Of a stretch of DNA of 64,000 bases, positions 8,411 to 53,368 are shown piece by piece. The stretch is from Bacteroidota bacterium (GTDB taxonomy: Bacteria; Bacteroidota; Bacteroidia; SXHM01), in the NCBI GenBank assembly GCA_947478465.1, contig CANJWH010000006.1, positions 1-64,000 on the forward strand. The letters are read 5' to 3'. Both the position numbers and the translations under genes were made by a program. Each line of letters opens with the position of its first letter. Positions within the stretch are counted from its first letter, which is position 1. Under the pieces are notes generated by a model. That model saw only the letters and a list, made by a program, of their open reading frames with translations, searched no databases and was not told where the DNA came from.

Positions 8411-8475
8411 CAAAAATAGGCTAAAGGCATAATGTGCATGATGCAATTAGTCATGATTATTGATGATATACATCA
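8411..8475 (-). promoter_or_regulatory. Two-site FNR/CRP-like promoter of the 8032-8370 gene
   Basis: On the minus strand: distal site TGATGTATATCA (8464-8475), 10-bp spacer, weaker proximal site TGACTAATTGCA (8442-8453), 23-bp spacer, then the -7 element TATTTTTG (8411-8418). The -7 element lies 40 bp before the ATG. Spacings are identical to those of the nos operon promoter. The proximal site keeps the TGAC half but has GCA in place of TCA. Confidence 0.7.
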
Positions 8476-8500
8476 TTAATCGGTATCCTAGATCAGGCAG

Positions 8501-9907
8501 CTATTTTAATTTCGCAACGAAAATATCACCCTGTCCTGCATTTTTTAATAGAGTCTCGCTAAATCGCATTTCAAGGCCATCAAAGACCCCCGCAAGATAT
8601 ACATCTCCGTTTATATCAGTAGTAATACATCTGGCCATAGCGCTTCCATAAATGCTTTTTGCCCATATTACTTTACCCTCGGGACTATATTTTGAAATAA
8701 AAATATCATTGCTCGTGGCATTTTTCAATTTTACCTGACCTGATTGAGAAAAATTACTTTCAAAAATGCCGGTGAGATAAACGTCCCCAACTGCATTTGT
8801 TGTAATTCCAAACCCATAATCCTTTGCTAATCCACCTGCGCGTTTTGCCCAAACAGGTTCACCATTGTTATCATATTTTGCAATAAATACATCCCCATAT
8901 TCTACTCCGTGTGCCCGAGTTAAAATGGTGCACTCCATAAGTGTATCGCATCCAAAAACTATAGTATCACTTTTAAACCAACCGGTGAGGTATACATGAT
9001 TTAATTTATCTGTTGTTATGCTATAGACTTCATCATAATAACTTCCTCCCAGACTTTTTGCCCACATAAGTTTTCCTGAGGGATTATACTTTGCCATAAA
9101 TATATCTCCATAGTTACCATCTTTACCGGCATTGGTCAGTGATTTTTCTCCCAGACTGACTGTGGCGCTTCTGAATTTGCCCGACAGATAAATATTTCCA
9201 TCTCCATCATTTGTTACAGTGCTTCCATTATCATCGTTTTTGCCTCCAATATTTTTTGCCCATAAGACTTGTCCTGATTGATCGTAGCTGACCAGGAAAA
9301 TATCATGATTACCCACACTTGTTAAAGTAGAATTTCCAAAGTTGATTGTAGTGCTTTCATACATGCCCGTTACATATATATTGTCTTTACTGTCGCAACT
9401 AATACTGTTGCCTTCGTCATCAGCAATTCCACCAATACCTTTTGCCCAAACTACTGTTCCTTCCTCATCAAACCGTGCAATCAGGATGTCACTTCCGCCT
9501 GCATTATTTAGTGTTGTTTTTCCCAAAGAAATCACAGGGCTTTTAAACCATCCTGTAAGAACAAAAACTCCATTGTTTTTTGCTTTAATACTTATACTTC
9601 TGTCATCACCTGTTCCTCCAAAATTTTTAACCCATAACAAACTACCATTAGCGTTATATTTTGCAATAAAAATGTCACTTGTTCCTTCAATTCCATTGTT
9701 GGTAAGCACAGTGCTGCCGAAAGAAATGGTAGAGCTGTTGAACCACCCGGTAAGATATAAATTACGGTTTGCATCAACAGAAATGCTGGTTCCATAATCA
9801 AGAGAACTTCCGCCTGCACCATTTGCCCATGCCCATTCAGGTACTTGCCCAAATAATGATGCACTGCCAAGTGCTAATATCAACAATGTGTTAAGAATAG
9901 TTTTCAT
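8501..9907 (-). CDS. Secreted SBBP-repeat beta-propeller protein
   Basis: A signal peptide (residues 1-20, SLFGQ) is followed by about seven repeats of near 55 residues. Their consensus has GDIFIAKYN, G-x-L-x-WAK, GG-x3-D-x-G and G-x-VYLTG-x-F, the seven-bladed-propeller SBBP repeat of Bacteroidota. There is no T9SS tail and no catalytic motif; the protein ends right after the last strand (DIFVAKLK). It may be a binding or structural periplasmic or surface protein. It lies 29 bp after the universal stress protein gene and almost surely shares its promoter, which is of the FNR/CRP-like type described here. Confidence 0.75.
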   Translation of the reverse strand: MKTILNTLLILALGSASLFGQVPEWAWANGAGGSSLDYGTSISVDANRNLYLTGWFNSSTISFGSTVLTNNGIEGTSDIFIAKYNANGSLLWVKNFGGTGDDRSISIKAKNNGVFVLTGWFKSPVISLGKTTLNNAGGSDILIARFDEEGTVVWAKGIGGIADDEGNSISCDSKDNIYVTGMYESTTINFGNSTLTSVGNHDIFLVSYDQSGQVLWAKNIGGKNDDNGSTVTNDGDGNIYLSGKFRSATVSLGEKSLTNAGKDGNYGDIFMAKYNPSGKLMWAKSLGGSYYDEVYSITTDKLNHVYLTGWFKSDTIVFGCDTLMECTILTRAHGVEYGDVFIAKYDNNGEPVWAKRAGGLAKDYGFGITTNAVGDVYLTGIFESNFSQSGQVKLKNATSNDIFISKYSPEGKVIWAKSIYGSAMARCITTDINGDVYLAGVFDGLEMRFSETLLKNAGQGDIFVAKLK

Positions 9908-9936
9908 GCTTTCTTTAAATTTTTACCCTGTTAGTA

Positions 9937-10755
9937 TTAGTCTTTTGGAATTTGAATACTTAGGATTGGAATATTGGAGTGGTTGACAATGTTCTCAGCC
10001 TTACTTCCAATAATTAGCATATCCCATCCCGTTCTTCCATGCGCGCCAATCGTTATAAGACCTGCTTTAATTGAATTACTGAATTTAACAATTCCTGATT
10101 CAATGTGTTTTGCATTGTAAACATTTACTGTGTAATTTTTAAGGTGTGTCTTTTTTGCAAAGTCTTCCATACGCTCAATTGCATTATCTGTAAATTCAAA
10201 ATCAGATGTTGAGCAAACCCGCAGTAAATGAATTTTGCTGTCATAAATTTTTACCAGTTCAGAAATCTTCCAAAAAATCTTTTCGGTTTCAACGCCAAAA
10301 TCAGATGCAAAAACAATATTGCTGAAATCAAAATTTTCAGGTTTCCCTTTAACTGTAAGAACAGGACACTCAGCCATTCTTACTACTTTTTGTGTATTCG
10401 ATCCCAGAAACATGTCTGAAATGCCACTAATGCCATGTGTTCCCATTACAATCAAATCAATATCATGCTGTTTTGCATGTTTCCAGATTTGGTCATAAAT
10501 CTGTTCAAATTGTAATGCAATTACAACATTCACTCCTTCAAAAAATGGTTTCGCTATTAATGCATCCATCTTTTTTTTCACGAGTTTCATTACAAACAAT
10601 TTTTTTGCAACCTCATCCTCATCCCCATATTCAAGAAGGTTTACAACATGAAGCAAATAAATTGTAGCGTTAGTTTTCTTAGCAATAATTGCCGCCATCT
10701 CGGCAGCCGAATTTGCAGTTTCTGAAAAATCGGTTGGAAGCAAAATATTTTTCAT
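9937..10755 (-). CDS. Tandem universal stress protein (two UspA domains)
   Basis: 272 residues holding two Usp domains. Each ends with the nucleotide-binding motif G-x2-G-x9-G-[ST]: MGTHGISGISDMFLGSN (near residue 104-120) and IGAHGRTGWDMLIIGSK (near residue 237-253). The start MKNILLPTDFSE is typical. Both motifs are intact, so ATP binding is expected. Usp proteins of this tandem kind are often induced by anoxia or nitric oxide, which fits its promoter: two TGA-N6-TCA sites and a -7 element with the same spacing as before the nos operon. It is the first gene of a two-gene unit with the SBBP protein. Cytoplasmic. Confidence 0.9.
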   Translation of the reverse strand: MKNILLPTDFSETANSAAEMAAIIAKKTNATIYLLHVVNLLEYGDEDEVAKKLFVMKLVKKKMDALIAKPFFEGVNVVIALQFEQIYDQIWKHAKQHDIDLIVMGTHGISGISDMFLGSNTQKVVRMAECPVLTVKGKPENFDFSNIVFASDFGVETEKIFWKISELVKIYDSKIHLLRVCSTSDFEFTDNAIERMEDFAKKTHLKNYTVNVYNAKHIESGIVKFSNSIKAGLITIGAHGRTGWDMLIIGSKAENIVNHSNIPILSIQIPKD

Positions 10756-10781
10756 CTGAATTTGTGATTTTATTTCAAAAG

Positions 10782-10846
10782 CAAAGGTGAAAAATTGTTG
10801 AAATGAACAGCATGACAGCAGTCATTCATCTATATGATAAAAATCA
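10782..10846 (-). promoter_or_regulatory. Two-site FNR/CRP-like promoter of the universal stress operon
   Basis: Minus strand: distal TGATTTTTATCA (10835-10846), 10-bp spacer, proximal TGACTGCTGTCA (10813-10824), 23-bp spacer, -7 element CACCTTTG (10782-10789), 26 bp before the ATG. Both 12-mers have perfectly symmetrical half-sites (TGAT/ATCA and TGAC/GTCA). Confidence 0.8.
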
Positions 10847-10859
10847 TTATCTGTATATT

Positions 10860-10897
10860 AAAGAAGAACCCCGAGTTTTCGCCCGGGGTTCTTCTTT
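10860..10897. terminator. Bidirectional terminator after the redox operon
   Basis: Perfect 14-bp arms AAAGAAGAACCCCG / CGGGGTTCTTCTTT with a 10-nt loop. It lies between the stop of the last cytochrome gene (10922) and the promoter of the universal stress operon, so it separates the two transcription units, both on the minus strand. Confidence 0.8.
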
Positions 10898-10921
10898 AAT
10901 AAATAAATGAAATTATATTAA

Positions 10922-11344
10922 CTATTTAGCGGAAAGGGTTCTTATATAATCTACTATTAACCAAACATCTTCATCTTCAGAAATTTTACTTTTAAAAGAA
11001 GGCATATCTTTTCTTCCTTCTTTTGTTTTATAGAAAATAGTACCATCTGTTTGTGCCTGAAATTCTTTAGTTGAAAAATCTCCGCTTGGTGTATCTAATT
11101 CACCTGATTTTGGTCCATCTCCTTTTCCGGTAGCACCATGACATGATTTGCAATGCTGGGCAAATAATGTTTTTCCAACTTTGATATTTTCTGCAGTTGC
11201 CTCAGTAGGGTTCTTCATTTTTTTAGCTGATTCCGGAACGACCCACACTTTTGCATCCTGCTTAAAGATTTTTGCGGGGTAAATGAATGACATTGCAAAT
11301 ACTGCAATAGCAATTATTGAAAAGAGAAGTGCTGATTTTTTCAT
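10922..11344 (-). CDS. Exported monohaem cytochrome c
   Basis: A 140-residue class I cytochrome c. The N-terminal hydrophobic segment (residues 4-23) is a signal peptide or anchor; the haem motif is C65-K-S-C68-H69 followed by GATGKGDGP, and the likely distal ligand is M114 in RKDMPSF. Its ATG overlaps the stop of the preceding membrane-protein gene by 4 bp (ATGA). It is the last gene of a nine-gene unit with an NrfD-type quinol dehydrogenase module, so it is the natural electron acceptor of that module in the periplasm. A terminator follows. Confidence 0.9.
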   Translation of the reverse strand: MKKSALLFSIIAIAVFAMSFIYPAKIFKQDAKVWVVPESAKKMKNPTEATAENIKVGKTLFAQHCKSCHGATGKGDGPKSGELDTPSGDFSTKEFQAQTDGTIFYKTKEGRKDMPSFKSKISEDEDVWLIVDYIRTLSAK

Positions 11345-12246
11345 GTTATTTGGTTTTTGTGTTTGTTTAATGATTTGATTTTAAATAATTGAAGAATGAT
11401 ATACAATATTACTGCCCAAACTGCGATAATTATAGTGTTGGAAACTATGACCAGGAAAAGCGGTGCATTTTTTCTTGAGCCCGACAATAATCGTTCTTCG
11501 CCTTGTGTTATTATTAGAGGTATTCCCCATTTTTCCTGAGCGGATGCAATTAAAGTGCCATAATTTTCATTCGCGTCTATCTTCACGACAATATTTAAAT
11601 TCCCAAGACTATCTCCTTTTAATCCCTTTGGGAATTCCAGTATAGCTTCTCCATTTTCATCTGTTGAAACAGGATATTCTGCCACGGATAGTAAACTGAA
11701 ATATCGTTTAACAAAAAATCCTATTTCTACTTCCGGTACAGGAATCCATTGGCCTTCTGTATTTTTTTCTTTCAAAATTGCTTTTGCATATCTTATTGAA
11801 TCTTCTTGGTAAAGAGATAATTCAAGAGTAGCAGATTTAATTGTAAGTTCTGTTTCAGTGCCTGTGAAACGCGGATCATTCATTAAACTTCCAATAAAAT
11901 TAAACTCTGTTAAGGAATCGCTCAGGTCTGCAAATTTTTTCGAAAGCGGAACAGAGCCTTCTCCGTTTTCATTGGTAGTAATATTGCCCATCATGCCCAA
12001 CTTCGAATTTTCATTAAGATAAAGGTTTACAATAGTAAACTGCACTGGATTTTTCTTTTTCTCTTCTTTTGTAAAAACTTTGAAATCTACTTTTCCATTA
12101 CCATTCTCTTTTACAAACTTCATTGTTACAAACACTTTCTGTTTTTCAGAAGTTGAGTCTTGAGCCAGTAGCAAAACAGGAAATACCCAGACAATAATTA
12201 GTGAGGTAATTAATGATGAAATGTTATATTTCTTTAAACGGTTCAT
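11341..12246 (-). CDS. Membrane-anchored periplasmic protein of the redox operon, unknown
   Basis: 301 residues: signal peptide (LITSLIIVWVFPVLLLAQ), about 230 residues of predicted beta-rich periplasmic domain, then one transmembrane helix near residues 262-290 (FLVIVSNTIIIAVWAVILYIIL) and a short basic tail. The middle contains repeated strand pairs such as TTNENGEGSVPL and STDENGEAILEF, which look like two immunoglobulin- or transthyretin-like modules. There are no cysteines for haem or metal centres. It sits between nrfD-like and cytochrome genes with no gaps, so it probably holds or assembles that complex. No known family recognised. Confidence 0.7.
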   Translation of the reverse strand: MNRLKKYNISSLITSLIIVWVFPVLLLAQDSTSEKQKVFVTMKFVKENGNGKVDFKVFTKEEKKKNPVQFTIVNLYLNENSKLGMMGNITTNENGEGSVPLSKKFADLSDSLTEFNFIGSLMNDPRFTGTETELTIKSATLELSLYQEDSIRYAKAILKEKNTEGQWIPVPEVEIGFFVKRYFSLLSVAEYPVSTDENGEAILEFPKGLKGDSLGNLNIVVKIDANENYGTLIASAQEKWGIPLIITQGEERLLSGSRKNAPLFLVIVSNTIIIAVWAVILYIILQLFKIKSLNKHKNQIT

Positions 12247-13584
12247 TTATTTAATTTCTTCCGGGTGAATACCATGTTCTTTAGCGGTTTCCCAGATTGG
12301 AATAATCGGGAAGTAACGAACGAAAAAAGTAATAACAAGTAATACACCTGCAAGCGAAGCTGCTGTTATTGACCATTCGGGCCATGTTGGAAAATAATGA
12401 GTGTATTCTACAGGGACATCCTGCATTGGAAGATATGGGTGCATCATTGTAGGAATTACAATAAGAAATCTTTTAAACCATGCCCCTACAACAACCATTA
12501 CTCCTAATACGAACATTACAAGCGGTTTTCTTCCCGAATTGAATAACATTACTATTAAAGGAATAATCATCCCTATTATTTGCACCGACCAGAAAAGAGG
12601 AGCATAGCTTCCTGTAAGCAACTCATTAAGATGGTCCGCGTCAACTTTTTTCATCTTAAATCCGGGTACAAAATATTCGTTAATATTAAAGTAAAGGTAT
12701 AGCAGTAACAATAAAACCAACAACCTTCCCATGTAATCAAAATGTTTCAGAGTAATGTATTTTTCCAACTTGTAATGTTCTCTTAAAATGTACATGGCGC
12801 AAATAACAGAAGCAGCACCAACTACAAAAGCTCCTGAAATAAAATATGCTCCCAAATTAGTGCTATCCCAGCCGGGGCGAGCAGTAGTTGCAAATAACCA
12901 TGAAGTAACAGTGTGTATTGAGAATGCTAAAGGAATTACCACAACTGCGAGAATTTTTACTGAGTTTTCAATTATTTTATATTGCTCTTTTGTGCCCTGC
13001 CAACCTATTGCAAGAAAAGTATAAAATTTTTTCAGCCATTTATTTTCTGCAGGTGTTGCATCTCTGCATATTGCAATATCTGGTATCATAGGAATATAGA
13101 GTAACAACATGCTTACAACAAGGTAAGTAGTTATTACAATTACATCCCAGATTATTGGTGATTGAATTCTTCCGTAAACGAAAAGATGCCAGAATCTTTC
13201 GGGTCTTCCCATGTCAACGATTATAATGATCCCTGCAAACGTGATTCCTGCAACCGCAATAACCTCTGCAATTCTCGTAAGCGGAGTTTGCCAGTGAGCA
13301 TTTGATAATTTAAGTATTGCACTAATCAAAGAGCCCACTAAACTGATGGCAACAAAAAATACAAAATTGGAAATGTAAATTCCCCATGAAACATAATCCC
13401 GCATAGAGGTTATTATCAATCCTTCGCGTAGTTGTCTGAAAAAATAATAATACAGACCGGTAACAAAAATGAGCGATAAAACACCTACCCATATTTTGCC
13501 CGATAAACTGAACTTTTTAGGCAGCATATCCTCTTTCAGTTTTTTCATCTGCAAGGCAGTTTTTTCGGCTTCGCTGTTATTCAT
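12247..13584 (-). CDS. NrfD/PsrC-family membrane quinol oxidoreductase subunit
   Basis: 445 residues with about nine to ten transmembrane helices and the NrfD signature arrangement: an N-terminal cytoplasmic stretch, then GIYISNFVFFVAISLVGSL, IIIIVDMGRPERFWHLF and SFSIHTVTSWLFATTARPGW. Subunits of this family carry no haem. They bind menaquinol or ubiquinol at the outer membrane face and pass electrons to a partner four-cluster Fe-S protein, here the next upstream gene. The family covers PsrC, DsrP, HmeB, TtrC and ActC/ActF of alternative complex III. No molybdenum subunit is encoded anywhere in the operon. Gaps on either side are 0-9 bp. Confidence 0.87.
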   Translation of the reverse strand: MNNSEAEKTALQMKKLKEDMLPKKFSLSGKIWVGVLSLIFVTGLYYYFFRQLREGLIITSMRDYVSWGIYISNFVFFVAISLVGSLISAILKLSNAHWQTPLTRIAEVIAVAGITFAGIIIIVDMGRPERFWHLFVYGRIQSPIIWDVIVITTYLVVSMLLLYIPMIPDIAICRDATPAENKWLKKFYTFLAIGWQGTKEQYKIIENSVKILAVVVIPLAFSIHTVTSWLFATTARPGWDSTNLGAYFISGAFVVGAASVICAMYILREHYKLEKYITLKHFDYMGRLLVLLLLLYLYFNINEYFVPGFKMKKVDADHLNELLTGSYAPLFWSVQIIGMIIPLIVMLFNSGRKPLVMFVLGVMVVVGAWFKRFLIVIPTMMHPYLPMQDVPVEYTHYFPTWPEWSITAASLAGVLLVITFFVRYFPIIPIWETAKEHGIHPEEIK

Positions 13585-13593
13585 GAGTTTGAT

Positions 13594-14523
13594 TTATTCC
13601 TCAGTTTTTTCTTTATCTTCTTTTGTGAACGGGAAAAGACGATCAACCGGAGGCAGATAATACACCCTTGGTTTGGTTCCTAAATCTTCCATGTAACGGT
13701 AACCTGCTTTATCCCTAAGTAGCTGGCTTAATGCAAATGTTTCACTTCCGTTTGTTACAGTATCTTCATTTTCATCTCCCATAAAAAAAACTCCGTTCGG
13801 GCATGCTGTAACACAGTGCGGTAATTTGCCTTGCTCAAGCATGTGGGGACAGAAATCACATTTTTCAACAACGCCCTTTTTTCTAGGCTGACTTGTTGCA
13901 CAGGTATGTTCGCCTGTTGCAATATGTATTGGTTGTTTTGGTTCTTCCCAGTTGAATACGCGTGTTGAATAAGGGCACGCAGCCATGCAAAACCGGCAAC
14001 CAATGCAGCGCTCATTATCAATAGCGACAATGCCATCTTCGCGTTTAAATGTTGCATCAACCGGGCAAACTTTTGTGCAAGGTGGATTGTCGCAATGCAG
14101 ACAGGGCTTTGGCATCCAGTAGGGCGAACTTTCTTCATTATCCTGCATTTCGTATACTTTCAACCATTGATTTGGTCCGGTGAGAGCGTGAGCTTTATTA
14201 CAGGCGCTCTGACATTTTCTCGCATTTTTACAACGCGATAAATCAATTACCATTACCCATTTTTTACCGGGAATTCCTTTTCTTTCATCATTATTTGCCA
14301 GGGCAGAAAGCGTGTCTGTTGCTATTTTTATTTTTGAACGGTCAACCTCTACTAACTGACCTTCGGCAGTCATTACCTTTACTTTTTCACCGCTTGTTTC
14401 TTCGCTTGCTGAAAGTGTATTTGAGAGAATAGTTCCTGCAACTGCACTTCCACCAAGAAACAAACCGGCACGCAGAAAATTGCGCCTGTCATTTGTCTGG
14501 TTATCATTATTCTCTTCAGCCAT
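13594..14523 (-). CDS. Tat-exported four-cluster Fe-S protein (NrfC/DsrO/TtrB-like)
   Basis: 309 residues. A twin-arginine signal (DRRNFLRAGLFLGG, R13-R14) directs the folded protein to the periplasm. Cysteine motifs: C141/C144/C149/C153, C173/C176/C179/C183 and C222/C225/C237/C241 are complete. The first motif is C98-x5-C104-x3-C108, where the second cysteine of the standard C-x2-C-x2-C-x3-C is replaced by A101. This suggests three [4Fe-4S] clusters and one [3Fe-4S] or otherwise altered cluster. It would bind the periplasmic face of the NrfD-like subunit encoded 9 bp downstream and carry electrons between quinol and cytochromes. No dedicated catalytic partner is encoded. Confidence 0.9.
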   Translation of the reverse strand: MAEENNDNQTNDRRNFLRAGLFLGGSAVAGTILSNTLSASEETSGEKVKVMTAEGQLVEVDRSKIKIATDTLSALANNDERKGIPGKKWVMVIDLSRCKNARKCQSACNKAHALTGPNQWLKVYEMQDNEESSPYWMPKPCLHCDNPPCTKVCPVDATFKREDGIVAIDNERCIGCRFCMAACPYSTRVFNWEEPKQPIHIATGEHTCATSQPRKKGVVEKCDFCPHMLEQGKLPHCVTACPNGVFFMGDENEDTVTNGSETFALSQLLRDKAGYRYMEDLGTKPRVYYLPPVDRLFPFTKEDKEKTEE

Positions 14524-14546
14524 TTTTATTTTTTTGGTTATTGATA

Positions 14547-15452
14547 TTATTTAACGAAACCCCATTTTCTGGTGATATTAAATCCAAGTATCAGACCTTC
14601 TTTAGGCTTTGTAAAATCGTTAGAGTTATAAACTATACTTTGTTGCGGGATAATTCCGTTCGCAGAGGCAACAAAAATCTGGAACGCATGTGAACTTGTT
14701 GCAATTTCCCATCCCAGCCCCAGGTTTGGATGTGTTTTTGTGGCATCATTTCCGGTGTTGGTTAATGGATAATCAAATTCAAATAATACGGAAGATTGCG
14801 GACTTACCTTGAACCTGCCGGACGCACTGAGCGCAAAATTGTCGTGCTTGGTTCCGGCAACCGAGTCTACAATGTTATAATGAGCATAGCTGGCAGAAAA
14901 CTGCATAGAAAACCAATCTGCAAATTTTCTTGAAATAATTATCTGATGAAAATAAGACATACGCTGAGCCCCTTTTTTATATCGTGTCTCATCTCTTTTT
15001 GCTGATATTGCCATCTCACCAAAATAGGTAACTGCAATGGGCATGCTGTTAGAACGGGTTTGTTCCAGAATAGCGCCCTTTGTTCTGAAATCCCAAAGCG
15101 AACCATTTTTTGTTACACCAAATCCCGCCTGTATCCTGTCTATAATACCGTAATCAAAACCAATACGGATATTGGATGATCCATATACTCCCCACAAATC
15201 TTCATATCCTTTATCAAATGTTCCGAAACGATGCTGCATCATCATTTCCAGTGTTTTCTTTTTCAGATTTACTGTGGTTTGGTTATTTAGCACTGTGCCA
15301 CAGGCAAAAGGCGAACGCACCGGACGTTTATCTTTTTCATTTTTGCCGGATGTTTTTGTTGAGTCGCTATCAATTGTTTCTGTTTCCTGCGCCCATGAAA
15401 TTATTCCAAAACACATCAGAACTATTGTTAGGTATATTTTTATGTTTTTCAT
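14547..15452 (-). CDS. DUF5777-type outer-membrane beta-barrel protein
   Basis: About 301 residues. I chose the ATG at 15452 because it gives a normal signal peptide (MKNIKIYLTIVLMCFGIISWAQ); an upstream frame start at 15473 overlaps the previous gene. The mature part starts with a charged stretch, then PFACGTVLNNQTTVNLKKK, then alternating amphipathic strands with HRFGTFDKGYEDLWGVYGSS and a terminal aromatic-rich strand (ITRKWGFVK), as in Bacteroidota DUF5777 barrels. These are found beside YceI and cytochrome genes, but their function is not established. In this operon it could be an outer-membrane component for transport or cytochrome docking. Confidence 0.72.
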   Translation of the reverse strand: MKNIKIYLTIVLMCFGIISWAQETETIDSDSTKTSGKNEKDKRPVRSPFACGTVLNNQTTVNLKKKTLEMMMQHRFGTFDKGYEDLWGVYGSSNIRIGFDYGIIDRIQAGFGVTKNGSLWDFRTKGAILEQTRSNSMPIAVTYFGEMAISAKRDETRYKKGAQRMSYFHQIIISRKFADWFSMQFSASYAHYNIVDSVAGTKHDNFALSASGRFKVSPQSSVLFEFDYPLTNTGNDATKTHPNLGLGWEIATSSHAFQIFVASANGIIPQQSIVYNSNDFTKPKEGLILGFNITRKWGFVK

Positions 15453-15469
15453 ATTCCTGATTTTAAAAA

Positions 15470-17214: not shown

Positions 17215-17315
17215 TCTGAAATTTTTGCTTTAGTTTTATTTAAAAAAAACGAGACGAAATAATTTTAAAATCAATAGTAAAATTCTTTCGCCCCGTTTAG
17301 TTGAGACAATACTGC

Positions 17316-17718: not shown

Positions 17719-18453
17719 TCAGATTTTTTTGGCATTCACATTAAGTTTCACTTTTACCAAATCAGCAATAGATGTAGATGTTACACCAAAAACTGATTGT
17801 GCTTTCATATCAAACTGTCCGCTGAAACCTGTTTTATAAGTTGGAGCACCTCCTGTAGTGCTGGCGTATTCATGAACGCCTGCATATTCAAAATAAAGAT
17901 CTATTGGAGCTTCAACACCTTTGAAATTCAGTGTGCCGCGAGCTACATAACCACTTCCAAATCTTTCAGTGCTGGTGCTATTAAACCATGCTGTATCAGA
18001 AGCAGGCTGAACGGTGTAAACATCCGGTGTTGGATTGGTATCAACATCAAATACAACTCCCATATAACCAGGTCCGCATTTTCCGGCAGCATCTCTTCCC
18101 GGTTCCCCTGTATTGAAAGTTGAAAGTTGAACCCAAGAACTTATAGTTGTGTTCTCTGGGTTTTCCTGATCAAAATGTAAGGTAACTCCAAAATTGTTAA
18201 ATCTTCCAGTCAAAAGTGCATTGCTTCCAAAGTAAAATGTTTCCCATCCAACATTTGAATGTGTTTTGTCTATTGTCCAAGTTGGAGCAGTACCACCAAT
18301 ATCTACCATATCAGTACCTGTGCTTATATTAGTAGGAAGCGGGTCAATAACATCTTCTTTGTTGCATGATGAAATAAATAGTGCTGATGATGTGAGAAGA
18401 ATTGCTGATGCTGCAACATACATCAAAGTTCTTCCTGTTGTTTTTGTTTTCAT
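17719..18453 (-). CDS. YceI-family lipoprotein, first gene of the redox operon
   Basis: 244 residues; lipobox ISSC (C30) after a long hydrophobic signal. Residues about 55-244 form a YceI lipocalin-like barrel: TWTIDKTHSNVGWETFYFG, LTGRFNNFGVTLHFD, YVARGTLNFKGVEAPIDLYFEY and FSGQFDMKAQSVFGV are the family landmarks. YceI proteins bind isoprenoid quinones or related amphiphiles in the periplasm, which suits an operon that also encodes an NrfD-type quinol oxidoreductase. It is preceded by three TGA-N6-TCA sites spaced 10 bp apart and a -7 element, the longest of the FNR/CRP-like arrays found in this window. Confidence 0.88.
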   Translation of the reverse strand: MKTKTTGRTLMYVAASAILLTSSALFISSCNKEDVIDPLPTNISTGTDMVDIGGTAPTWTIDKTHSNVGWETFYFGSNALLTGRFNNFGVTLHFDQENPENTTISSWVQLSTFNTGEPGRDAAGKCGPGYMGVVFDVDTNPTPDVYTVQPASDTAWFNSTSTERFGSGYVARGTLNFKGVEAPIDLYFEYAGVHEYASTTGGAPTYKTGFSGQFDMKAQSVFGVTSTSIADLVKVKLNVNAKKI

Positions 18454-18494: not shown

Positions 18495-18581
18495 CAAATA
18501 TGGCCCAAGCATTATAGTCATTGACTGACAGAAGTCACCTAACCGGCTGATTGATTTCATTATTTTTAATGATATAAATCA
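18495..18581 (-). promoter_or_regulatory. Three-site FNR/CRP-like promoter of the redox operon
   Basis: Minus strand, in order: TGATTTATATCA (18570-18581), 10 bp, TGAAATCAATCA (18548-18559), 10 bp, TGACTTCTGTCA (18526-18537), 23 bp, -7 element CATATTTG (18495-18502), 41 bp before the YceI ATG. The extra middle site is exactly one 22-bp period, so the array is phased on one face of the helix. The divergent ceramidase-like gene starts about 125 bp on the other side. Confidence 0.82.
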
Positions 18582-42790: not shown

Positions 42791-42794
42791 AAAA

Positions 42795-45618: not shown

Positions 45619-45704
45619 GGTACGTATTGTTTTGAATGAAAAAGGTTATCCATTACAAAGATGCAAAAGATATTTGTAACTTCTTATTTTGCAGGGGGCT
45701 ATGC

Positions 45705-46472
45705 CTATAAATTCTTTTTTCTGAAAATGCGCAGCGCAATCAGCAGCGGAAAAATAATCCACATCAGCATAATGGATAGGCTGTAGATAATACCAAAGCT
45801 GCTTCCGAAAAACTGTTTGTAAACAGCCCCTGTCAGCCCCATTAATGCCGAAATATCCATTTTCATCAGAATAATTATTCTGCCCAGATCAATAGGGTTG
45901 AAGGATGCAAGAGCAATCACTGCTTTCTCTAACGGATATTCATTGAACGAAAAGAGAATTCCTAAAACAAGCCCGTCATAAATCACCGAAAAATAAAACC
46001 ACAGCATCAGCGACATGCCAATGCCTTTTGCTTTGTCGCGCATGGCAACCGAAGAGAAAAATGCCAGTGATATAAACGAAAGCGTAAGCGCAAAACCTGA
46101 AATCATTAATACTAACCCGGTTGAGTCGGGTGCGTAAATCAGAACAGGAATACCAACTCCTATAAGCAATGCAGTAAGCAATGAAACGGAAACACCTAAA
46201 AATTCGCCCAATAATATAGAGCTGCGACTTATAGGTTGAGCCACCAGTAATTCTATAAACTGATAAGCATTATAGAAATACGTTGTTGAGAAAATAATAC
46301 TTACCAGCGGAACAATAATCATTACCACACTCATGAGGCTTATAAGGCTCTTTGAACTGTTCTCTTCCATGCTGAACAGACTGAATGAAACCAGCAGCAG
46401 AAACAGGGAATAAGCAATCAATACCTTGCTGCGCAAGATATCATACATCACATATTTTGCTATCTTAAACAT
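45705..46472 (-). CDS. nosY: NosY, ABC transporter permease of the nos operon
   Basis: 255 residues with about six transmembrane helices and the ABC-2 permease layout. It works with NosF (ATPase) and NosD (periplasmic) to deliver a sulfur species or copper for CuZ assembly in N2O reductase. The start overlaps nosF by 8 bp. It is the last gene of the unit in this strain. By sequence alone it could be any ABC-2 permease; the order nosL-D-F-Y settles the call. Confidence 0.88.
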   Translation of the reverse strand: MFKIAKYVMYDILRSKVLIAYSLFLLLVSFSLFSMEENSSKSLISLMSVVMIIVPLVSIIFSTTYFYNAYQFIELLVAQPISRSSILLGEFLGVSVSLLTALLIGVGIPVLIYAPDSTGLVLMISGFALTLSFISLAFFSSVAMRDKAKGIGMSLMLWFYFSVIYDGLVLGILFSFNEYPLEKAVIALASFNPIDLGRIIILMKMDISALMGLTGAVYKQFFGSSFGIIYSLSIMLMWIIFPLLIALRIFRKKNL

Positions 46473-47178
46473 GCGCTGATTCTTTCATGATTTTAGCAAT
46501 CGCTTTTCCCACTTTTTCTTCACCTGTTTGTTTCTTCAGTTCCGTTACTGAATTATAGAAATTCACTTTGCCTTCATATAAATACATCACGGTATCAGCC
46601 ATTTCTTCTACTTCACTCATAATGTGCGAGGTAATGATGACAAGCTTTCCTTTACTCTTTGCTTCTATAATTTTTGCTTTTAAAATTTCAGAAGCTAAAG
46701 GGTCTAGTCCCGCTGTGGGCTCATCTAATATTAGCACTTTAGGATTAAATAAGAAAGCAAGTGATGCACTAACCTTTTGTGTTGTTCCTCCCGAAAGGGC
46801 GTGCATAGGTTTTTCAAAAAGTTCTGAAAGTTTGTATTCTTCCATTAAACTTTCATCTAACGATACAGCATTTTTCCGCAGGTCTTTCATCATTCTGAAA
46901 ATCTGACCAATCTTCATGTTCTCGGGATAGTGCCCTATTTGCGGCATATAGCCAATATTCTCGCGGTAGCGGAAATCACCGGCAATGTTTTTTTCGTCAA
47001 CATAAATGTTGCCTTTATCTGCTACCACCATTCCCAGTATACATTTGATAAGTGTGGTTTTTCCCGAACCATTGTGACCTATAACACTTACCACCTGACC
47101 TGCTTTAAATTCCACATCAATTCCTTTCAGAATATTCAGTTTGCCAAAACTTTTTTCTACCTTTTCAATTCGTATCAT
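46465..47178 (-). CDS. nosF: NosF, ABC transporter ATPase of the nos operon
   Basis: 237 residues. Walker A is GHNGSGKTT (residues 34-42), the Q-loop lies in NIGYMPQIGHYP, the signature is ALSGGTTQKVSAS and Walker B is VLILDEPTAGLDP, all intact. It powers NosY for maturation of the copper-sulfur centre of NosZ. It overlaps nosD by 4 bp and nosY by 8 bp, so translation is probably coupled. Confidence 0.92.
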   Translation of the reverse strand: MIRIEKVEKSFGKLNILKGIDVEFKAGQVVSVIGHNGSGKTTLIKCILGMVVADKGNIYVDEKNIAGDFRYRENIGYMPQIGHYPENMKIGQIFRMMKDLRKNAVSLDESLMEEYKLSELFEKPMHALSGGTTQKVSASLAFLFNPKVLILDEPTAGLDPLASEILKAKIIEAKSKGKLVIITSHIMSEVEEMADTVMYLYEGKVNFYNSVTELKKQTGEEKVGKAIAKIMKESAHV

Positions 47179-48413
47179 AAAGAATGTGGTTTCATCATGG
47201 GTGCATAATCCTGAAATGTTTCAGGAACAATTCCCGGAATACTTTTTTCAGCGCGATTTAAAATCTCTACTGTAAAACTACGCAGCAACATTACGGCATA
47301 AGGCATTTGTTCAATTATCATAGAATACAAACTTACAGGACGAAAGGGTATGTCGCCAATCTTATCGCGGTTTAAATCATAACCTTCGTATTTATCCCAG
47401 TAATTATACTTAAAACTATTCTCACGCAATTCTCCATTGGTAGCGGCATCAAAGGTGTTTGCGGTAAAGTTATTATACATAAATGTATCACGGATGCAAT
47501 TGGCCATCACCTTTAGTGCATAACCGTTGGATGCAAAATTGTTTTTTGAAAATGTTATGCTGTTTGAACCTTCCATAGTTACACCAACGGTGTTATTGGT
47601 AAAAGTATTCCTTTCAATAATGCTGTTGCTGATATCTTTTAAAAGCAAACCGTAAGCCGCATCGCCCCAGTTATTCCGAAAAATGTTGTCATACATTTCA
47701 ACGTTTTTAGTGTACATCACAGCTACACCGGTTCCGTTATTCTGAAAAGTATTTTTGCGGTATACATCACTATCAGAAAACATGAAGTGCAAGCCGTAAC
47801 GGAAATTTTTTTCACAGAGGTTTTTTTCAATCAAACAAAAATGAGCAAACTCAAAATAAATACCGTCACGGTGACCTTCCATGTGGTTGTTCTCAATTTT
47901 TATACTGTCGCATTTCCATAGTTGTACACCGTTTCCCGTATCGCTGTTGCCATAGTTAGCACCTTTACTGTGGTTGCCGCTTATGAGGCAGTTCTTTGAA
48001 TTTGCTAAGTATATTCCGAAAAAGGTATTCTCCAGTTTGCAGTTGATTATTTTCACATTGCGCGAATCAACTACTCTTATTCCTGCATAATCTTTCATGC
48101 TTCCGCGCTTTGAGTTTTTTATCCATAAACCCGAAAGAATAACGTTATCTGCTTTTACTACCAGCACTTCATCTTTCTCCTGTCCGTCAATTACCGGATA
48201 ATTTTCACCAATAATAACAACCTGTTTTTTTATTTCTGTGTTTACAGAAGTGTAGATGCCCTTTTTTACAAGAATGGTGTCGAAATCAGCAGCTAGATCA
48301 AGTGCAGTTGTTAGTTGTGTTACTTTGCATTCGCTGCAAACAATAATGGTTTTTGCTTCGGAAAAGAAGCAGGAAACAAGAAGCAGGAAGCAAGATAATG
48401 CAAGTGATTTCAA
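47175..48413 (-). CDS. nosD: NosD, periplasmic copper-centre maturation protein
   Basis: 412 residues. Signal peptide (SCFLLLVSCFFSEAK), then a right-handed parallel beta-helix with CASH-type repeats (NVILSGLWIKNS, GIRVVDSRNVKIINCKLENT, GIYLANSKNCLISGN, GLLLKDISNSIIERN). Segments GTGVAVMYTKNVEMYDN and FNYNYWDKYEGYDLN-like YWDKYEGYDL are characteristic of NosD. It forms a complex with NosF and NosY needed to assemble CuZ. ATGA-type 4-bp overlaps link it to nosL and nosF. Confidence 0.93.
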   Translation of the reverse strand: MKSLALSCFLLLVSCFFSEAKTIIVCSECKVTQLTTALDLAADFDTILVKKGIYTSVNTEIKKQVVIIGENYPVIDGQEKDEVLVVKADNVILSGLWIKNSKRGSMKDYAGIRVVDSRNVKIINCKLENTFFGIYLANSKNCLISGNHSKGANYGNSDTGNGVQLWKCDSIKIENNHMEGHRDGIYFEFAHFCLIEKNLCEKNFRYGLHFMFSDSDVYRKNTFQNNGTGVAVMYTKNVEMYDNIFRNNWGDAAYGLLLKDISNSIIERNTFTNNTVGVTMEGSNSITFSKNNFASNGYALKVMANCIRDTFMYNNFTANTFDAATNGELRENSFKYNYWDKYEGYDLNRDKIGDIPFRPVSLYSMIIEQMPYAVMLLRSFTVEILNRAEKSIPGIVPETFQDYAPMMKPHSL

Positions 48414-48841
48414 AAGTTAATCTTTTTTAAATCGTTCCACAAAATAAGTTCAGCTCCAAATTCTTCATTTAGTTTTTCTGCATCGGCTTTTGTTTTAAAT
48501 GCAGCAAGGTTGCCCCCCATTGGACTTACAACACTTCCGCCATGCAGGTAAAATGCCTCCGAGGCATTTATCAGTTCGCCTTCTGAAGTATAATTAACAA
48601 CAAGGTATTGTGCAGCTTCAAATTTGTTTTCACTGTTCAGGTAGCTTACCATGCATTCACCTGAATCAAATTTTAGAGATTTACCTTTTGAGTTTACCAT
48701 TTCAGCTCCAAATTTTTTATCCATAATGGTCATGCTGCAATGTGCGCATAAATCTTTTCCAAAGTTAATTGGTTGTGGTTCGGTAGAACACGAAACAATA
48801 AATATACATACACTAAAAACGGACGCAAGAATTCTATTCAT
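48410..48841 (-). CDS. nosL: NosL, copper-chaperone lipoprotein
   Basis: 143 residues; lipobox IVSC (C18). The NosL signature is LCAHCSMTIMDKKFGAE (C32, C35, M37), with FDSGECMVSYL and a later FYLHGGSVVSPMGG rich in Met and His. NosL binds Cu(I) and supplies it to NosZ in the periplasm. It starts 28 bp after the nos-associated membrane protein gene. Confidence 0.93.
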   Translation of the reverse strand: MNRILASVFSVCIFIVSCSTEPQPINFGKDLCAHCSMTIMDKKFGAEMVNSKGKSLKFDSGECMVSYLNSENKFEAAQYLVVNYTSEGELINASEAFYLHGGSVVSPMGGNLAAFKTKADAEKLNEEFGAELILWNDLKKINF

Positions 48842-48869
48842 CTTTATTTAAACTTTAAATGTAATAATA

Positions 48870-49445
48870 TTAGTTTTTTCTGAAGAATTGCTCGTAAGCC
48901 AGAACTAAGAGAACGATAGCTGAGGCACCGATTATAAGCCACCCACCCACATCAGGGAATGAGCCTGCAAGAAAGTTTAATAATTGTTTCCATCCGAATA
49001 GCGGAGGCTGATAGGCCATACCTTCAATTTTGATGGCAGCGTGGGTATCAAGATTGTGTCCGTATTCATATTCCCATTTCCAGAAATCATACATGCCCCA
49101 CACACCACATAAAACCTGGTAAACAGCAAATATCCACAGTATCCATCTTTTGCCGGTTGCTGCAACAAGTAGTCCTAAAACTCCCATTGCAATAATAAGG
49201 TAAGACATGATTTTAAACTCCGGAAAGTTTTCTTCTTTTATAAGAGCCATACCTATATAATGGTTTAGCCCGTTTATTTTATTTACATCTCCGGCAATAT
49301 GGTCAGACCAAATTTCCATCTTTAATCCTTCAGGATATTGTGGTGCTTCCAGTAAAATTTTCCATGCAGGAAACTTCAGGGAAACAAACATGGCAACTCC
49401 GCATAACAACAGCACTACCCTTAGGAAAGGTTTGATCGTCTTCAT
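48870..49445 (-). CDS. nosZ-linked membrane protein, unknown
   Basis: 191 residues with four transmembrane helices: near residues 8-25, 78-95, 101-118 and 166-185. A periplasmic loop after the first helix has APQYPEGLKMEIWSDHIAGDVNKINGLNHYIGM, a pattern with conserved W, H and D residues. Genes of this type sit between nosZ and nosL in several Bacteroidota nos clusters, but have no known function. A role in electron delivery or copper handling for NosZ is a guess. It lies 66 bp after nosZ. Confidence 0.75.
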   Translation of the reverse strand: MKTIKPFLRVVLLLCGVAMFVSLKFPAWKILLEAPQYPEGLKMEIWSDHIAGDVNKINGLNHYIGMALIKEENFPEFKIMSYLIIAMGVLGLLVAATGKRWILWIFAVYQVLCGVWGMYDFWKWEYEYGHNLDTHAAIKIEGMAYQPPLFGWKQLLNFLAGSFPDVGGWLIIGASAIVLLVLAYEQFFRKN

Positions 49446-49511
49446 AAATTTTATTTTTAAAAGTTAAAAAAAAGGGGAGGTAAACCCTCCCTCCCCTTTT
49501 CAAAGCTCAAC

Positions 49512-51494
49512 CTATTTAGCAGAAACTGCTTCCTCTCCGGTTGAGTATTTTAATGTTGGATTGCTGCCCGCAGGAGATACACGAATATATCCTTGCATTT
49601 CCTGATGCAGTGCAGAACAAAAGTCGGTGCAATACATTGGGAATACACCTGCTCTGTCTGGCGTCCATTTAAGTGTTGATGTTTCACCTGGCAGTATTAA
49701 TAACTCCGAATTGTTAGCCCCTTTGATTGAGAAACCATGTGGCACATCCCAATCCTGTTCAAGGTTTGTAATATGGAAATACACATTGTCGCCAACTTTT
49801 ACACCTTCAATGTTATCAGGCGTAAAGTGTGAACGGATTGCTGTTGCATAAACATGCACGTCATTCCCGGTACGAACCACTTTTGCATCTTTCTCATTTT
49901 TTACAACAGCAGCGTGGTTGTTATTCTCTAATTTATAGAACTTAACTTCATGTTTGCGCACAATTTCAGCAGGACAAGCCTGAGCATAGTGTGGCTCACC
50001 TATAGTTGGGAAGTCAAGTAACAATTGCATTTTTTCTCCTTCAATAGAATACAACTGCGCTGATTGGGTCAACTCAGGACCTGTAGGCAGGTAACGGTCT
50101 TTGGTAATCTTGTTCAAAGCAATTACATATTTTCCGTAAGGGGTAATATTATCGCCCATTGGCACACAAAGGTGACCTATTGAATAATAAGTAGGAATTC
50201 GGTCAATAACCTGTTTGGTTTTAACATTCCACTTAACTATTTCTGATGAAACGAAGAATGAAGTGTAGGCATTTCCGTTTGCATCAAACTCTGTATGCAG
50301 AGGTCCAAGTCCCGGACGTTCTACTTCGCCATCAAGAGCTGCTTCGTATTTTATTACAGGAACTCCGTCATAATCTCCTTCAAAGTCTTTTGCTTCAATA
50401 GCTTTTATCATTTTGCTGAAAGAGTAAACCGGAATTACTGCAGCCAGTTTACCTGAAGCGCAGATGTATTCGCCAGTTGGGTCAACATCACAACCGTGTG
50501 GTGATTTTGGGCAAGGAATAAAATAACATACTCCCGGAAGATCTTTAACATCCAACACAGTAACTTCTTTTTCCATGGTAGTGGTAGCAGTATGAGTTCC
50601 TTCATCATATACATTGTGTGCATAATTTGCAGCCCATTTTTGTCCTTTACCTGCTGCTAAATATTCTTCGGCTTTTTTCCAGTTCACAGCCATAATAAAG
50701 TCTTTATCGCGTTGTGAAGCATTTACTTCTAACAATGAGTGTGCTTTTTCGCTGTTATAGCAACTGAAAAATACCCATCCGTCAGAAACTGCTTTACCTG
50801 CGCGAGCTAAATCATAGTCAACTCCGGGAACCAGCAACTGAAAGTTCAAATTCATGCGACCGGTTTCTTTGTCAACTTTTATAAAAGAAATGGTGCCTTT
50901 AAATTTGTCTTTGTATTCAGCAATAGCCTCATCACCTTGTTTGTCATAAGGAACAGAGAAACGAGAAGCTCCAACAACATACTCGGTATTTTGAGTAGTA
51001 AAAGGAGAAGCATGATTACCACCTGTATTAGGTAACTCAATAATTTCACGGGTTTTAAAAACGCCTAAGTCTACACGGGCAATACGTGGAGTATTGTTGG
51101 CATTGATAAATAACCAACGTCCGTCATCCTGACCTTCAGTACGTGAAAGTTGAGGATGGTGACTATCATCCCAGGGAACAAAACCATGAGAGGTCATTAA
51201 CATTGGTTTTGTTTCTTCGCTGTATCCCCATCCTGTTTCGGCATCCATAGAAAAGATTGGAACCTGTTTCAACATACGTCCTGATGGAATTCCGTAAACG
51301 CCTATTTGACCGCTGAAGCCACCTGAGGTAAAGAGGTAAACTTCATCGTATTTGCCGGGAGCAACATAAACTTTCGATGCTGCATCACCGGAGAGAGCAG
51401 AGTCAACCTTTTTGGGTTTACAACTGCTGATAATACCTGCCGCTGCTATGCAGGAGGCAAATATTCCTATTGATTTTAATGTGATTTTTTTCAT
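49512..51494 (-). CDS. nosZ: Nitrous oxide reductase, clade II (Sec/lipoprotein type)
   Basis: 660 residues. It reduces N2O to N2 in the periplasm. The N-terminus is a Sec signal with a lipobox-like IISSC (C25), not a twin-arginine signal, which marks the clade II (atypical) group. The seven-bladed propeller with the CuZ histidines starts with WDDSHHPQLSRTEGQDDGRW (H112, H113). The C-terminal cupredoxin domain carries CuA: C622, C626, H630 and M633 in YCTDFCSALHQEM, with another His in WDVPHGFSIKG. All key ligands are present, so it should be active. The gene follows a lipoprotein cytochrome c by 37 bp. Confidence 0.96.
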   Translation of the reverse strand: MKKITLKSIGIFASCIAAAGIISSCKPKKVDSALSGDAASKVYVAPGKYDEVYLFTSGGFSGQIGVYGIPSGRMLKQVPIFSMDAETGWGYSEETKPMLMTSHGFVPWDDSHHPQLSRTEGQDDGRWLFINANNTPRIARVDLGVFKTREIIELPNTGGNHASPFTTQNTEYVVGASRFSVPYDKQGDEAIAEYKDKFKGTISFIKVDKETGRMNLNFQLLVPGVDYDLARAGKAVSDGWVFFSCYNSEKAHSLLEVNASQRDKDFIMAVNWKKAEEYLAAGKGQKWAANYAHNVYDEGTHTATTTMEKEVTVLDVKDLPGVCYFIPCPKSPHGCDVDPTGEYICASGKLAAVIPVYSFSKMIKAIEAKDFEGDYDGVPVIKYEAALDGEVERPGLGPLHTEFDANGNAYTSFFVSSEIVKWNVKTKQVIDRIPTYYSIGHLCVPMGDNITPYGKYVIALNKITKDRYLPTGPELTQSAQLYSIEGEKMQLLLDFPTIGEPHYAQACPAEIVRKHEVKFYKLENNNHAAVVKNEKDAKVVRTGNDVHVYATAIRSHFTPDNIEGVKVGDNVYFHITNLEQDWDVPHGFSIKGANNSELLILPGETSTLKWTPDRAGVFPMYCTDFCSALHQEMQGYIRVSPAGSNPTLKYSTGEEAVSAK

Positions 51495-51531
51495 GTTATT
51501 TTGGTTTTGATTGGGTTAATAATTTTCTTTT

Positions 51532-52026
51532 TTATTTTTGGACTGAAGCACCTTCACCATCAATTTCTCTCAGGTATTCGAGAATGGCTTTTGCCTCATC
51601 GTCTGTTACATTCTGAAAAGTCATTTGGGTAAGGTGTTCTTCCAGCAACTTCATAGCCTGAGGATCTTTTTTGGTCATCTCTTCAGGATTGGTGATCATA
51701 TTTAAAATCCAGGTTGGTTTTCTGCGTTGTGTTACACCTTTTAGTCCCGGACCTACAACTTTCTGGTCTGTTACTTTGTGGCATGCAGAGCATTTGGTTT
51801 CAAATACTGTTTTACCTGATGCTGCAACTGCTGCATCAAAAGCAGCCAACGTTACACCGCTGAACTTTCCTATTCCTTCGCCATTATCTGCAACTTCTTC
51901 CTTTTTTACCATACTTTCAGGTGCAGCACCTGTGTTGGTGGTTTCGCTGCCGGAGCATCCTGCCATTAAAGCAACTCCTGTTGCTAAAATGCTTCCGGTA
52001 ATTAATTTGAATATTGTGTTTTTCAT
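51532..52026 (-). CDS. Cytochrome c lipoprotein, first gene of the nos operon
   Basis: 164 residues; lipobox MAGC (C24), an acidic linker, then a class I cytochrome c with C79-S-A-C82-H83, VGPGLKGVTQRRKPTW and a distal methionine probably in LTQMTFQN. Cytochromes at this position in clade II clusters are thought to pass electrons to CuA of NosZ. It is the promoter-proximal gene: two TGA-N6-TCA sites and a -7 TACTTTTG lie directly upstream. No nosR, nosB or nosG/H genes accompany it. Confidence 0.92.
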   Translation of the reverse strand: MKNTIFKLITGSILATGVALMAGCSGSETTNTGAAPESMVKKEEVADNGEGIGKFSGVTLAAFDAAVAASGKTVFETKCSACHKVTDQKVVGPGLKGVTQRRKPTWILNMITNPEEMTKKDPQAMKLLEEHLTQMTFQNVTDDEAKAILEYLREIDGEGASVQK

Positions 52027-52050
52027 ATGTATAGTTTTTGATTACGGGGT

Positions 52051-52115
52051 CAAAAGTATTTCGTCTTTATGCTCAAGGTAATGAGGTTGGTCAGCAAAAA
52101 ACATGATTAATATCA
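52051..52115 (-). promoter_or_regulatory. Two-site FNR/CRP-like promoter of the nos operon
   Basis: Minus strand: distal TGATATTAATCA (52104-52115), 10-bp spacer, proximal TGACCAACCTCA (52082-52093), 23-bp spacer, -7 element TACTTTTG (52051-52058), 24 bp before the ATG. The whole block, plus the upstream AAGGTCTTTTTAT, is nearly identical to the fasciclin promoter at 53304-53368. Confidence 0.85.
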
Positions 52116-52166
52116 ATAAAAAGACCTTTTTATCTTCTATTAATTAAGGAAACAGGTTTGCACTTG

Positions 52167-52237
52167 GTCACCCTGAACTTGTTTCAGGGTCTCAGAGATG
52201 CTGAAACAATCCCGTTAGCTATCGGGACAGCATGACG
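52167..52237. repeat. Dispersed palindrome of the TCACCCTGAA type
   Basis: A hairpin CCCTGAA-CTTGT-TTCAGGG (52171-52189), then ATGCTGAAAC, CCCGTTAGCTATCGGG and CAGCATGACG, the style of a common Bacteroidota intergenic element. It lies between the nos promoter and the end of the Rrf2 gene. Confidence 0.6.
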
Positions 52238-52258
52238 ATAACCTTTGCTGCAGAATAA

Positions 52259-52699
52259 TTACTGAAGATTGGAAATAAACGATTTACCTGCTATAATACT
52301 ATCCGAAAACTCTTGAATGGTTTTCTTTTCCAGCAAATTTTTGAGCTTGTTTGAATAGCTCGTAAATTCATTGTGAATAGGGCAGGGATGATCTGCATCG
52401 CAATTTTTTAAACCCAAACCGCAACGCTCAAAGGCAGATTTGCCATCCATAATTTCTACAATATCCATTACCACAATAGGCTTTGCTTTTTTATCAATAA
52501 AGAAACCACCACCCGGACCTTTGGATGATGAAATGATTTTGTGTTTTACCAATGTCTGCAAAATTTTAGCCGTAAAAGGCTCAGGCGATTCAATCTCCTC
52601 AGCAATTTCGTGTATGCTCAGTTTGCTTCCTTCCTTTGTATTTATACATATATGCAGCACTGCTTTAATAGCATACTCACAACTTTTAGAAAACATCAT
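52259..52699 (-). CDS. Rrf2-family transcription regulator with Fe-S cysteines
   Basis: 146 residues. A winged-helix N-terminus (MMFSKSCEYAIKAVLHI, SIHEIAEEIESPEPFTAKILQTLVKHKIISSSKGPGGGF) and three cysteines C93, C100 and C106 (ERCGLGLKNCDADHPC) that match the cluster ligands of IscR/NsrR-type sensors. It could sense NO, oxygen or iron-sulfur status. It lies directly downstream of the nos promoter region and is the second gene after a lipoprotein gene that has its own TGA-N6-TCA promoter, so it may be a regulated regulator of this locus. Confidence 0.88.
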   Translation of the reverse strand: MMFSKSCEYAIKAVLHICINTKEGSKLSIHEIAEEIESPEPFTAKILQTLVKHKIISSSKGPGGGFFIDKKAKPIVVMDIVEIMDGKSAFERCGLGLKNCDADHPCPIHNEFTSYSNKLKNLLEKKTIQEFSDSIIAGKSFISNLQ

Positions 52700-52719
52700 A
52701 ATAGATAGCAGTTATGTTT

Positions 52720-53181
52720 TTAGTTTCGGAATGCAAATGAAGAATCGATTTTTGAAAAAAGAGAATAGATTTCATTACTTGCCTGAGTTGCGGCAGCTAC
52801 ATCGTTTTTCTGAAGCGCAGGAACTCTTTCGCTGATAAGATTAAGGTTGTTACAAAGCAAAGTTTTAGAATCTCTATCAAGGCCGCAATAGTTTGTAGTC
52901 CGCTCAATATGATTTCGGAGCAGGTTGCCATATTCATTATAAGCAGCCAGATTATTCGGCTGTCGTTTTATCATCAGCGAAAAATTAACTATTGTGTTTT
53001 CCATCACTTTAAGTTCTTCTGCTGTGGAGCGGTCAACTGTATATTTTCCGTTTATTTTTTCTGAGACAAAATTTTCTGTTGTAGCCGATGAACTGTTTTT
53101 TGTCCCTGCAAAATCATTGCATCCAATTGCAATGAAAATACTGCAGCATATCAGAAGTGCGGATTTAAAGTTGTTCAACAT
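52720..53181 (-). CDS. Lipoprotein of unknown function, cotranscribed with the Rrf2 gene
   Basis: 153 residues from the ATG at 53181, which gives MLNNFKSALLICCSIFIAIGC with lipobox AIGC (C21). A start at 53217 would add 12 residues but lies almost on top of the -7 element (53231-53238), so the inner start is preferred. The mature part is mostly helical (AEELKVMENTIVNFSLMIKRQPNNLAAYNEYGNLLRNHIERT), a four-helix-bundle look. It has two later cysteines (NYCGLD, LLCNNL). No family recognised. 20 bp separate it from the Rrf2 gene. Confidence 0.68.
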   Translation of the reverse strand: MLNNFKSALLICCSIFIAIGCNDFAGTKNSSSATTENFVSEKINGKYTVDRSTAEELKVMENTIVNFSLMIKRQPNNLAAYNEYGNLLRNHIERTTNYCGLDRDSKTLLCNNLNLISERVPALQKNDVAAATQASNEIYSLFSKIDSSFAFRN

Positions 53182-53230
53182 GTTTTGAATTCTATAAAAT
53201 GTGGGTGTAAAGTTCATGATCTCTCTGAAA

Positions 53231-53315
53231 TAAATGTATGATTAATACTTTATTTTATAATGATGTTGGTCACAAAGAAAAGAAGACAATAAGGTCTTTT
53301 TATTGATAATTATCA
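53231..53315 (-). promoter_or_regulatory. FNR/CRP-like promoter of the lipoprotein-Rrf2 unit
   Basis: Minus strand: TGATAATTATCA (53304-53315, shared with the divergent fasciclin promoter), 31 bp, TGACCAACATCA (53261-53272), 22 bp, -7 element TACATTTA (53231-53238). Spacings are each 1 bp short of the periodic pattern (32 and 23), and the -7 element ends in A and not G, so it is the weakest of the set. Confidence 0.6.
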
Positions 53316-53368
53316 TATTTTTTAATGACCAACCTCATTACTGCTGCTCTTTTTGCAAAATACATTTG
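53304..53368 (+). promoter_or_regulatory. Two-site FNR/CRP-like promoter of the fasciclin gene
   Basis: Plus strand: TGATAATTATCA (53304-53315), 10 bp, TGACCAACCTCA (53326-53337), 23 bp, -7 element TACATTTG (53361-53368), 29 bp before the ATG at 53398. This position rules out translation starting at the upstream in-frame TTG (53353). Confidence 0.85.

Follow-up and report, generated by a model that had tools for sequence, protein, structure and literature searches.

Phased tandem TGA-N6-TCA promoters in Bacteroidia and a receiver-Crp fusion as their candidate regulator

In the class II systems of E. coli FNR and Pseudomonas Anr/Dnr, a palindrome with a TGA-N6-TCA core lies near -41.5, the target genes serve low-oxygen and nitrogen-oxide metabolism, and the regulator combines a cNMP-binding fold with a Crp helix-turn-helix (HTH). 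We found the same features, the placement as a predicted one and the regulator as a candidate, in a 64,000-nucleotide stretch of DNA from a Bacteroidota bacterium (the window) and in the genome to which it belongs. Unlike the FNR/Dnr systems, the window holds no full TTGAT-N4-ATCAA palindrome (0 matches), only the inner TGAY-N4-RTCA being conserved; the commonest predicted arrangement is a pair of dimers held in a fixed 22-bp phase, and the cysteines of FNR are missing from the candidate regulator, which also carries a receiver domain. The rhizobial FixLJ-FixK system is similar in that a FixL-like PAS kinase stands beside a response regulator and ccoNO and ccoI/fixI are targets. However, FixJ has a LuxR-type output that acts on the fixK promoter, whereas here the receiver and a Crp/FixK-type body form one protein.

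The Bacteroidota promoter consensus combines TTTG at -33 with TAnnTTTG at -7 (PMC7366714). Compared with such sigma-ABfr promoters, the promoters reported here have an identical -7 element but no conserved -33 element, whose place is taken by a regulator site that keeps a fixed distance. Neither the fusion nor the tandem code was described in the open-access literature that we searched, and because the search covered open-access sources, the novelty of both is provisional.

Six promoters in the window

A base-by-base check confirmed the positions of six promoters given in a preliminary description, and TGA-N6-TCA sites are present at all six, with one mismatch in the proximal site of promoter 1. 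Promoter 1 (8411-8475, minus strand) has a distal site at 8464-8475, the degenerate proximal site at 8442-8453 (TGACTAATTGCA on the minus strand) and a -7 element at 8411-8418 (TATTTTTG); its gene (8032-8370) encodes a 112-aa basic secreted protein for which a Pfam search gave no match. Promoter 2 (10782-10846, minus strand), with sites at 10835-10846 and 10813-10824 and a -7 element at 10782-10789 (CACCTTTG), precedes the gene of a 272-aa universal stress protein (9937-10755, minus strand; PF00582, E 6.7e-44). Promoter 3 (18495-18581, minus strand) belongs to the redox operon and has three in-phase sites (18570-18581, 18548-18559 and 18526-18537) with a -7 element at 18495-18502 (CATATTTG). 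Its first gene, YceI-like (17719-18453, minus strand; PF04264), heads an NrfD/cytochrome cluster that extends to 10922 and includes NrfD (PF03916, 12247-13584) and Fe-S proteins identified by Pfam.

Promoter 4 (52051-52115, minus strand), with sites at 52104-52115 and 52082-52093 and a -7 element at 52051-52058 (TACTTTTG), is followed by a cytochrome c gene (51532-52026) and then by nosZ, encoding a 660-aa nitrous oxide reductase (49512-51494, minus strand; PF18764 nos_propeller, E 7e-33). The earlier assignment of this gene as nosZ is borne out by this propeller domain and by the NosL, NosD and ABC-pair genes that a Pfam check found downstream. Promoter 6 (53304-53368, plus strand) has sites at 53304-53315 and 53326-53337 and a -7 element at 53361-53368 (TACATTTG), and serves a fasciclin-domain lipoprotein gene (53353-53961, plus strand; Pfam), whose true start is probably the ATG 3' of that element. 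In these five promoters the spacer between sites is 10 bp and the -7 element begins 23 bp past the proximal site, as had been reported. Promoter 5 (53231-53315, minus strand) departs from both values: its proximal site (53261-53272) and next site (53304-53315) are 31 bp apart, and the gap to the -7 element (53231-53238, TACATTTA) is 22 bp. It precedes a gene without a Pfam match (52720-53217) and an Rrf2 gene (52259-52699). The -7 elements, described earlier as TAnnTTTG-like, were all located; two of the six start with CA and one ends in A.

The same block occurs, duplicated and inverted, at promoters 4 and 6 (52082-52140 and 53280-53337; TGAGGTTGGTCA ... AATAAAAAGACCTT), which suggests that one array may have been copied from the other. 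An IS200-like (Y1) transposase gene lies at 57236-57682, downstream of the promoter region.

Five perfect tandem matches occur in the window, whereas its dinucleotide-shuffled versions average 0.02; when up to two mismatches are allowed, the window alone has 8 matches with 4.6 expected, which is not significant. The genome assembly (3.41 Mb, 131 contigs, 91% complete) contains 16 tandem matches, and the pattern read backwards has none. The six window promoters thus share one rigid design, above chance. Fifteen of the 16 genomic matches are intergenic, the exception lying within an 805-aa open reading frame (ORF) on contig C118 (L027). This contig, the only one with an intragenic tandem match, is small and GC-richer, and is probably contamination or otherwise foreign. 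Outside the window, paired promoters precede ccoNO, ccoI (a FixI-like P-type ATPase gene) and genes of several secreted or unknown proteins, as well as a row of arsR, kinase and REC-Crp genes that diverges from a universal stress protein gene.

Recurrence and geometry across Bacteroidia

Among 294 Bacteroidia genomes, pairs of TGAY-N4-RTCA at spacer 10 numbered 378, compared to 1 for the reversed-pattern control, and 89 genomes of other Bacteroidota classes had 3 pairs; two genomes of family f57 (G279 and G296) were excluded from these class-wide statistics. In G279 we observed a dispersed palindromic repeat with a 22-bp period that mimics tandem FNR boxes (for example C1:179424-179501; 109 matches, control 61). 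When the spacer was left free between 0 and 30 in seven genomes, 54 of 70 pairs fell at 10 and 8 at 11. For 138 pairs with flanks, 62 lay between divergent genes, 70 between co-directional and 2 between convergent ones, and only 4 were inside ORFs, though about 90% of the flanking DNA is coding. The genome scan for tandem sites with a -7 element that had been proposed as a check was strongly positive, both in number (16 versus 0) and in non-random placement (4/138 in ORFs).

The -7 motif of the Bacteroidota primary sigma factor, TAnnTTTG with at most one mismatch, begins exactly 23 bp past the proximal site in 51 of 68 unique co-directional promoters, with a chance expectation of 0.76 per position; the set includes orthologous promoters of congeners, and outside the genus the gap of 23 holds in 33 of 49. 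Apart from this motif the DNA 3' of the proximal site is featureless, and no -33 element is visible in the 68 promoters. Given the usual placement of the -7 element, the proximal site would be centred at about -41 and the distal one at about -63. A gap of 23 would fit an activator site near -41.5, in keeping with the class II position that had been proposed. The pair as an absolute rule was rejected: when 28 unique single sites were taken that match strictly and are followed at gap 23 by a perfect -7 element, a partner was found at spacer 10 in 12 cases and at spacer 11 in 3, most of the others being without a clear partner. The tandem layout had been called unusual for FNR, and it is, but it is a Bacteroidia-wide promoter code and not a peculiarity of this genome, and it also accompanies FNR-like proteins that have no receiver domain.

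The 104 predicted target proteins include 15 universal stress proteins, 9 CcoN-CcoO fusions, 6 CcoI-type ATPases, 8 hemerythrin-like proteins (5 with ScdA_N), 4 cytochromes c and 3 YceI-like proteins. The low-oxygen and nitrogen-oxide character proposed earlier for the targets is supported, and Pfam identified the Usp, YceI, cytochrome c, Rrf2, fasciclin and NrfD products in the window. The six promoters appear to belong to one regulon, and the targets together with the PAS domain of the kinase described below point to anoxia or nitrogen oxides as the probable signal. With a code this rigid, raw sequence is enough to list the members of the regulon throughout a large bacterial class, including uncultured members; among the genes so listed are nosZ, whose product removes the greenhouse gas N2O, and those of the high-affinity cbb3 oxidase.

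Candidate readers of the tandem sites

A search of the genome for Crp-type genes yielded two, which encode a 351-aa fusion and a 212-aa protein. The fusion (L020:10312-11367, contig C12, outside the window) consists of an N-terminal receiver (PF00072, E 3e-29), a cNMP-binding domain (PF00027, E 1e-19) and a Crp HTH (PF13545, E 5e-16), which places it in the Crp/Fnr family; its nearest solved relative is 2gau, a Crp/Fnr-family protein of Porphyromonas gingivalis. A structure model (pLDDT 83, pTM 0.59) agrees with this domain order and is uninformative on oligomers, and a fold search returned Crp/Fnr structures only. The output domain is Crp-type, not the LuxR type of FixJ, and the Crp parts of the fusions contain 0 to 2 cysteines, short of the FNR cysteine cluster. 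Receiver residues Asp53, Thr83 and Lys105 are invariant in 28 homologs. By domain, residues and adjoining kinase the fusion is a response regulator, for which phosphotransfer is predicted.

The fusion gene sits between ccoI and the gene of a PAS/PAS histidine kinase, with ccoNO nearby and four tandem pairs within 10 kb. In 43 genomes, 36 of 148 tandem sites were no more than 6 kb from a fusion gene, with 0.6 expected. Genomes with a fusion, as counted by an E-value cut-off and not as a curated family, average 2.15 pairs, compared to 0.46 in those without (Fisher p 6e-12), and the association persists within the 22 families that have both kinds (permutation p 0.0002); a perfect pair is missing from 49 of the 144 genomes with the fusion. 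Among the named carriers are Chitinophaga filiformis, Mucilaginibacter psychrotolerans, Arcticibacter svalbardensis, Sphingobacterium corticibacter, Jiulongibacter sediminis, Salinimicrobium nanhaiense and an uncultured Aquimarina.

We consider it probable that the window promoters are members of a class found throughout Bacteroidia and are read by the REC-Crp fusion under control of the PAS kinase. A Crp/Fnr-family dimer, in this organism most likely the fusion on contig C12, would occupy the proximal TGAY-N4-RTCA, centred near -41, stand in for the absent -33 element and activate, rather than repress, RNA polymerase with the primary sigma factor of Bacteroidota. A second dimer, which would sit on the same face of the helix exactly two turns further upstream, may reinforce the complex cooperatively, a mechanism open to study with simple spacing mutants. 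Phosphorylated by the adjoining PAS/PAS kinase at low O2, or when NO occupies the heme, the fusion would switch on nosZ, the NrfD/cytochrome cluster and the genes of the universal stress proteins and of the cbb3 oxidase with its copper pump, as well as its own sensor operon. The single Crp/Fnr-family regulator proposed in the preliminary description was right in kind, the best candidate being this fusion and not a classical FNR/Dnr protein.

That the pairs arise by chance or from a dispersed repeat family can practically be dismissed. The look-alike repeats in G279 and the duplicated flanks of promoters 4 and 6 would fit such an origin, but it is refuted by the counts, the control being near zero elsewhere, and the intergenic placement, exact -7 geometry and diverse flanks also speak against it. 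It is very unlikely that another DNA-binding protein, such as the 212-aa Crp relative or the Rrf2 or ArsR product, reads the sites, even though all three are encoded in this genome and arrays precede the Rrf2 and ArsR genes. The symmetry of TGA-N6-TCA matches that of sites for Crp/Fnr dimers, and tandem sites track the fusion across the class. In CRP and FNR, TGA is read by a Glu and an Arg of the recognition helix; both are present in the fusion (STESVIR), whereas the 212-aa protein (SRVVVSR) lacks the conserved Glu.

A one-component, FNR-like Fe-S protein would be a more serious competitor, reading the pairs in this organism and leaving the fusion a smaller or overlapping role. Such proteins, REC-less with a CxxC...C motif near the N terminus (FNR-like by this motif; the Fe-S cluster is putative) and the recognition helix T-[AT]-TET-x-IR, similar to that of the fusion, are encoded next to tandem pairs in four fusion-less genomes (L210, L271, L276 and L279). 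An additional FNR-like gene with a similar recognition helix also occurs in three congeners (G001, G003 and G006), but the sites adjoining it are single and the pairs surround the fusion gene. We found no REC-less FNR-like gene in the 91% complete assembly, nor any match to the neighbourhood of the congeners' gene, which is weak evidence, being an empty result; a second regulator may be absent through incomplete assembly. On balance we regard this alternative as unlikely for the present organism.

The fusion remains the preferred reader here, but spacer-10 pairs also occur in genomes without it (19 of 29 free-spacer pairs; for 12 of 19 places the -7 element starts at gap 23), so it is not the only protein to go with this code. 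These pairs weaken the receiver domain as a candidate cause of the tandem layout, and because REC-less sisters abut pairs where no fusion exists, the layout appears to be independent of that domain. Two sensory inputs thus seem to share one promoter code. When a tree was built from 53 Crp bodies, a single branch (100/100) separated the fusions from the rest, with the root unsettled; most simply, the fusion arose once from an FNR-like ancestor and the DNA code was kept, the direction of this change being presumed. We put at about even the chances of the fuller scenario, in which Bacteroidia have a dedicated two-dimer code (sites in 22-bp phase, the -7 element 23 bp on, no -33 element) and an Fe-S, FNR-like one-component lineage once produced a REC-Crp fusion controlled by a heme-PAS kinase; the fusion would have kept the code and would now share or replace the regulon. 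If true, a one-component redox sensor lineage gained two-component control with its DNA code unchanged.

The PAS histidine kinase

A related kinase, which would phosphorylate the fusion, adjoins it in 33 of 39 fusion loci. The first PAS domain matches those of the heme O2 sensors DosP and FixL, and the histidine at the proximal heme-ligand position is kept in all 29 aligned first PAS domains. Three kinases, all from Sphingobacteriaceae, are the only ones with the distal arginine of FixL, which the kinase of this genome lacks. From these residues heme and O2 are the likely ligand and signal of the kinase, and NO is a possible signal. The kinase ORF (L020:11379-13259, contig C12) starts with a TTG that lies within the first PAS domain, with no in-frame upstream ATG; the start codon may be an unusual one, or the assembly may contain an error. 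The kinases of two congeners are about 15 residues longer.
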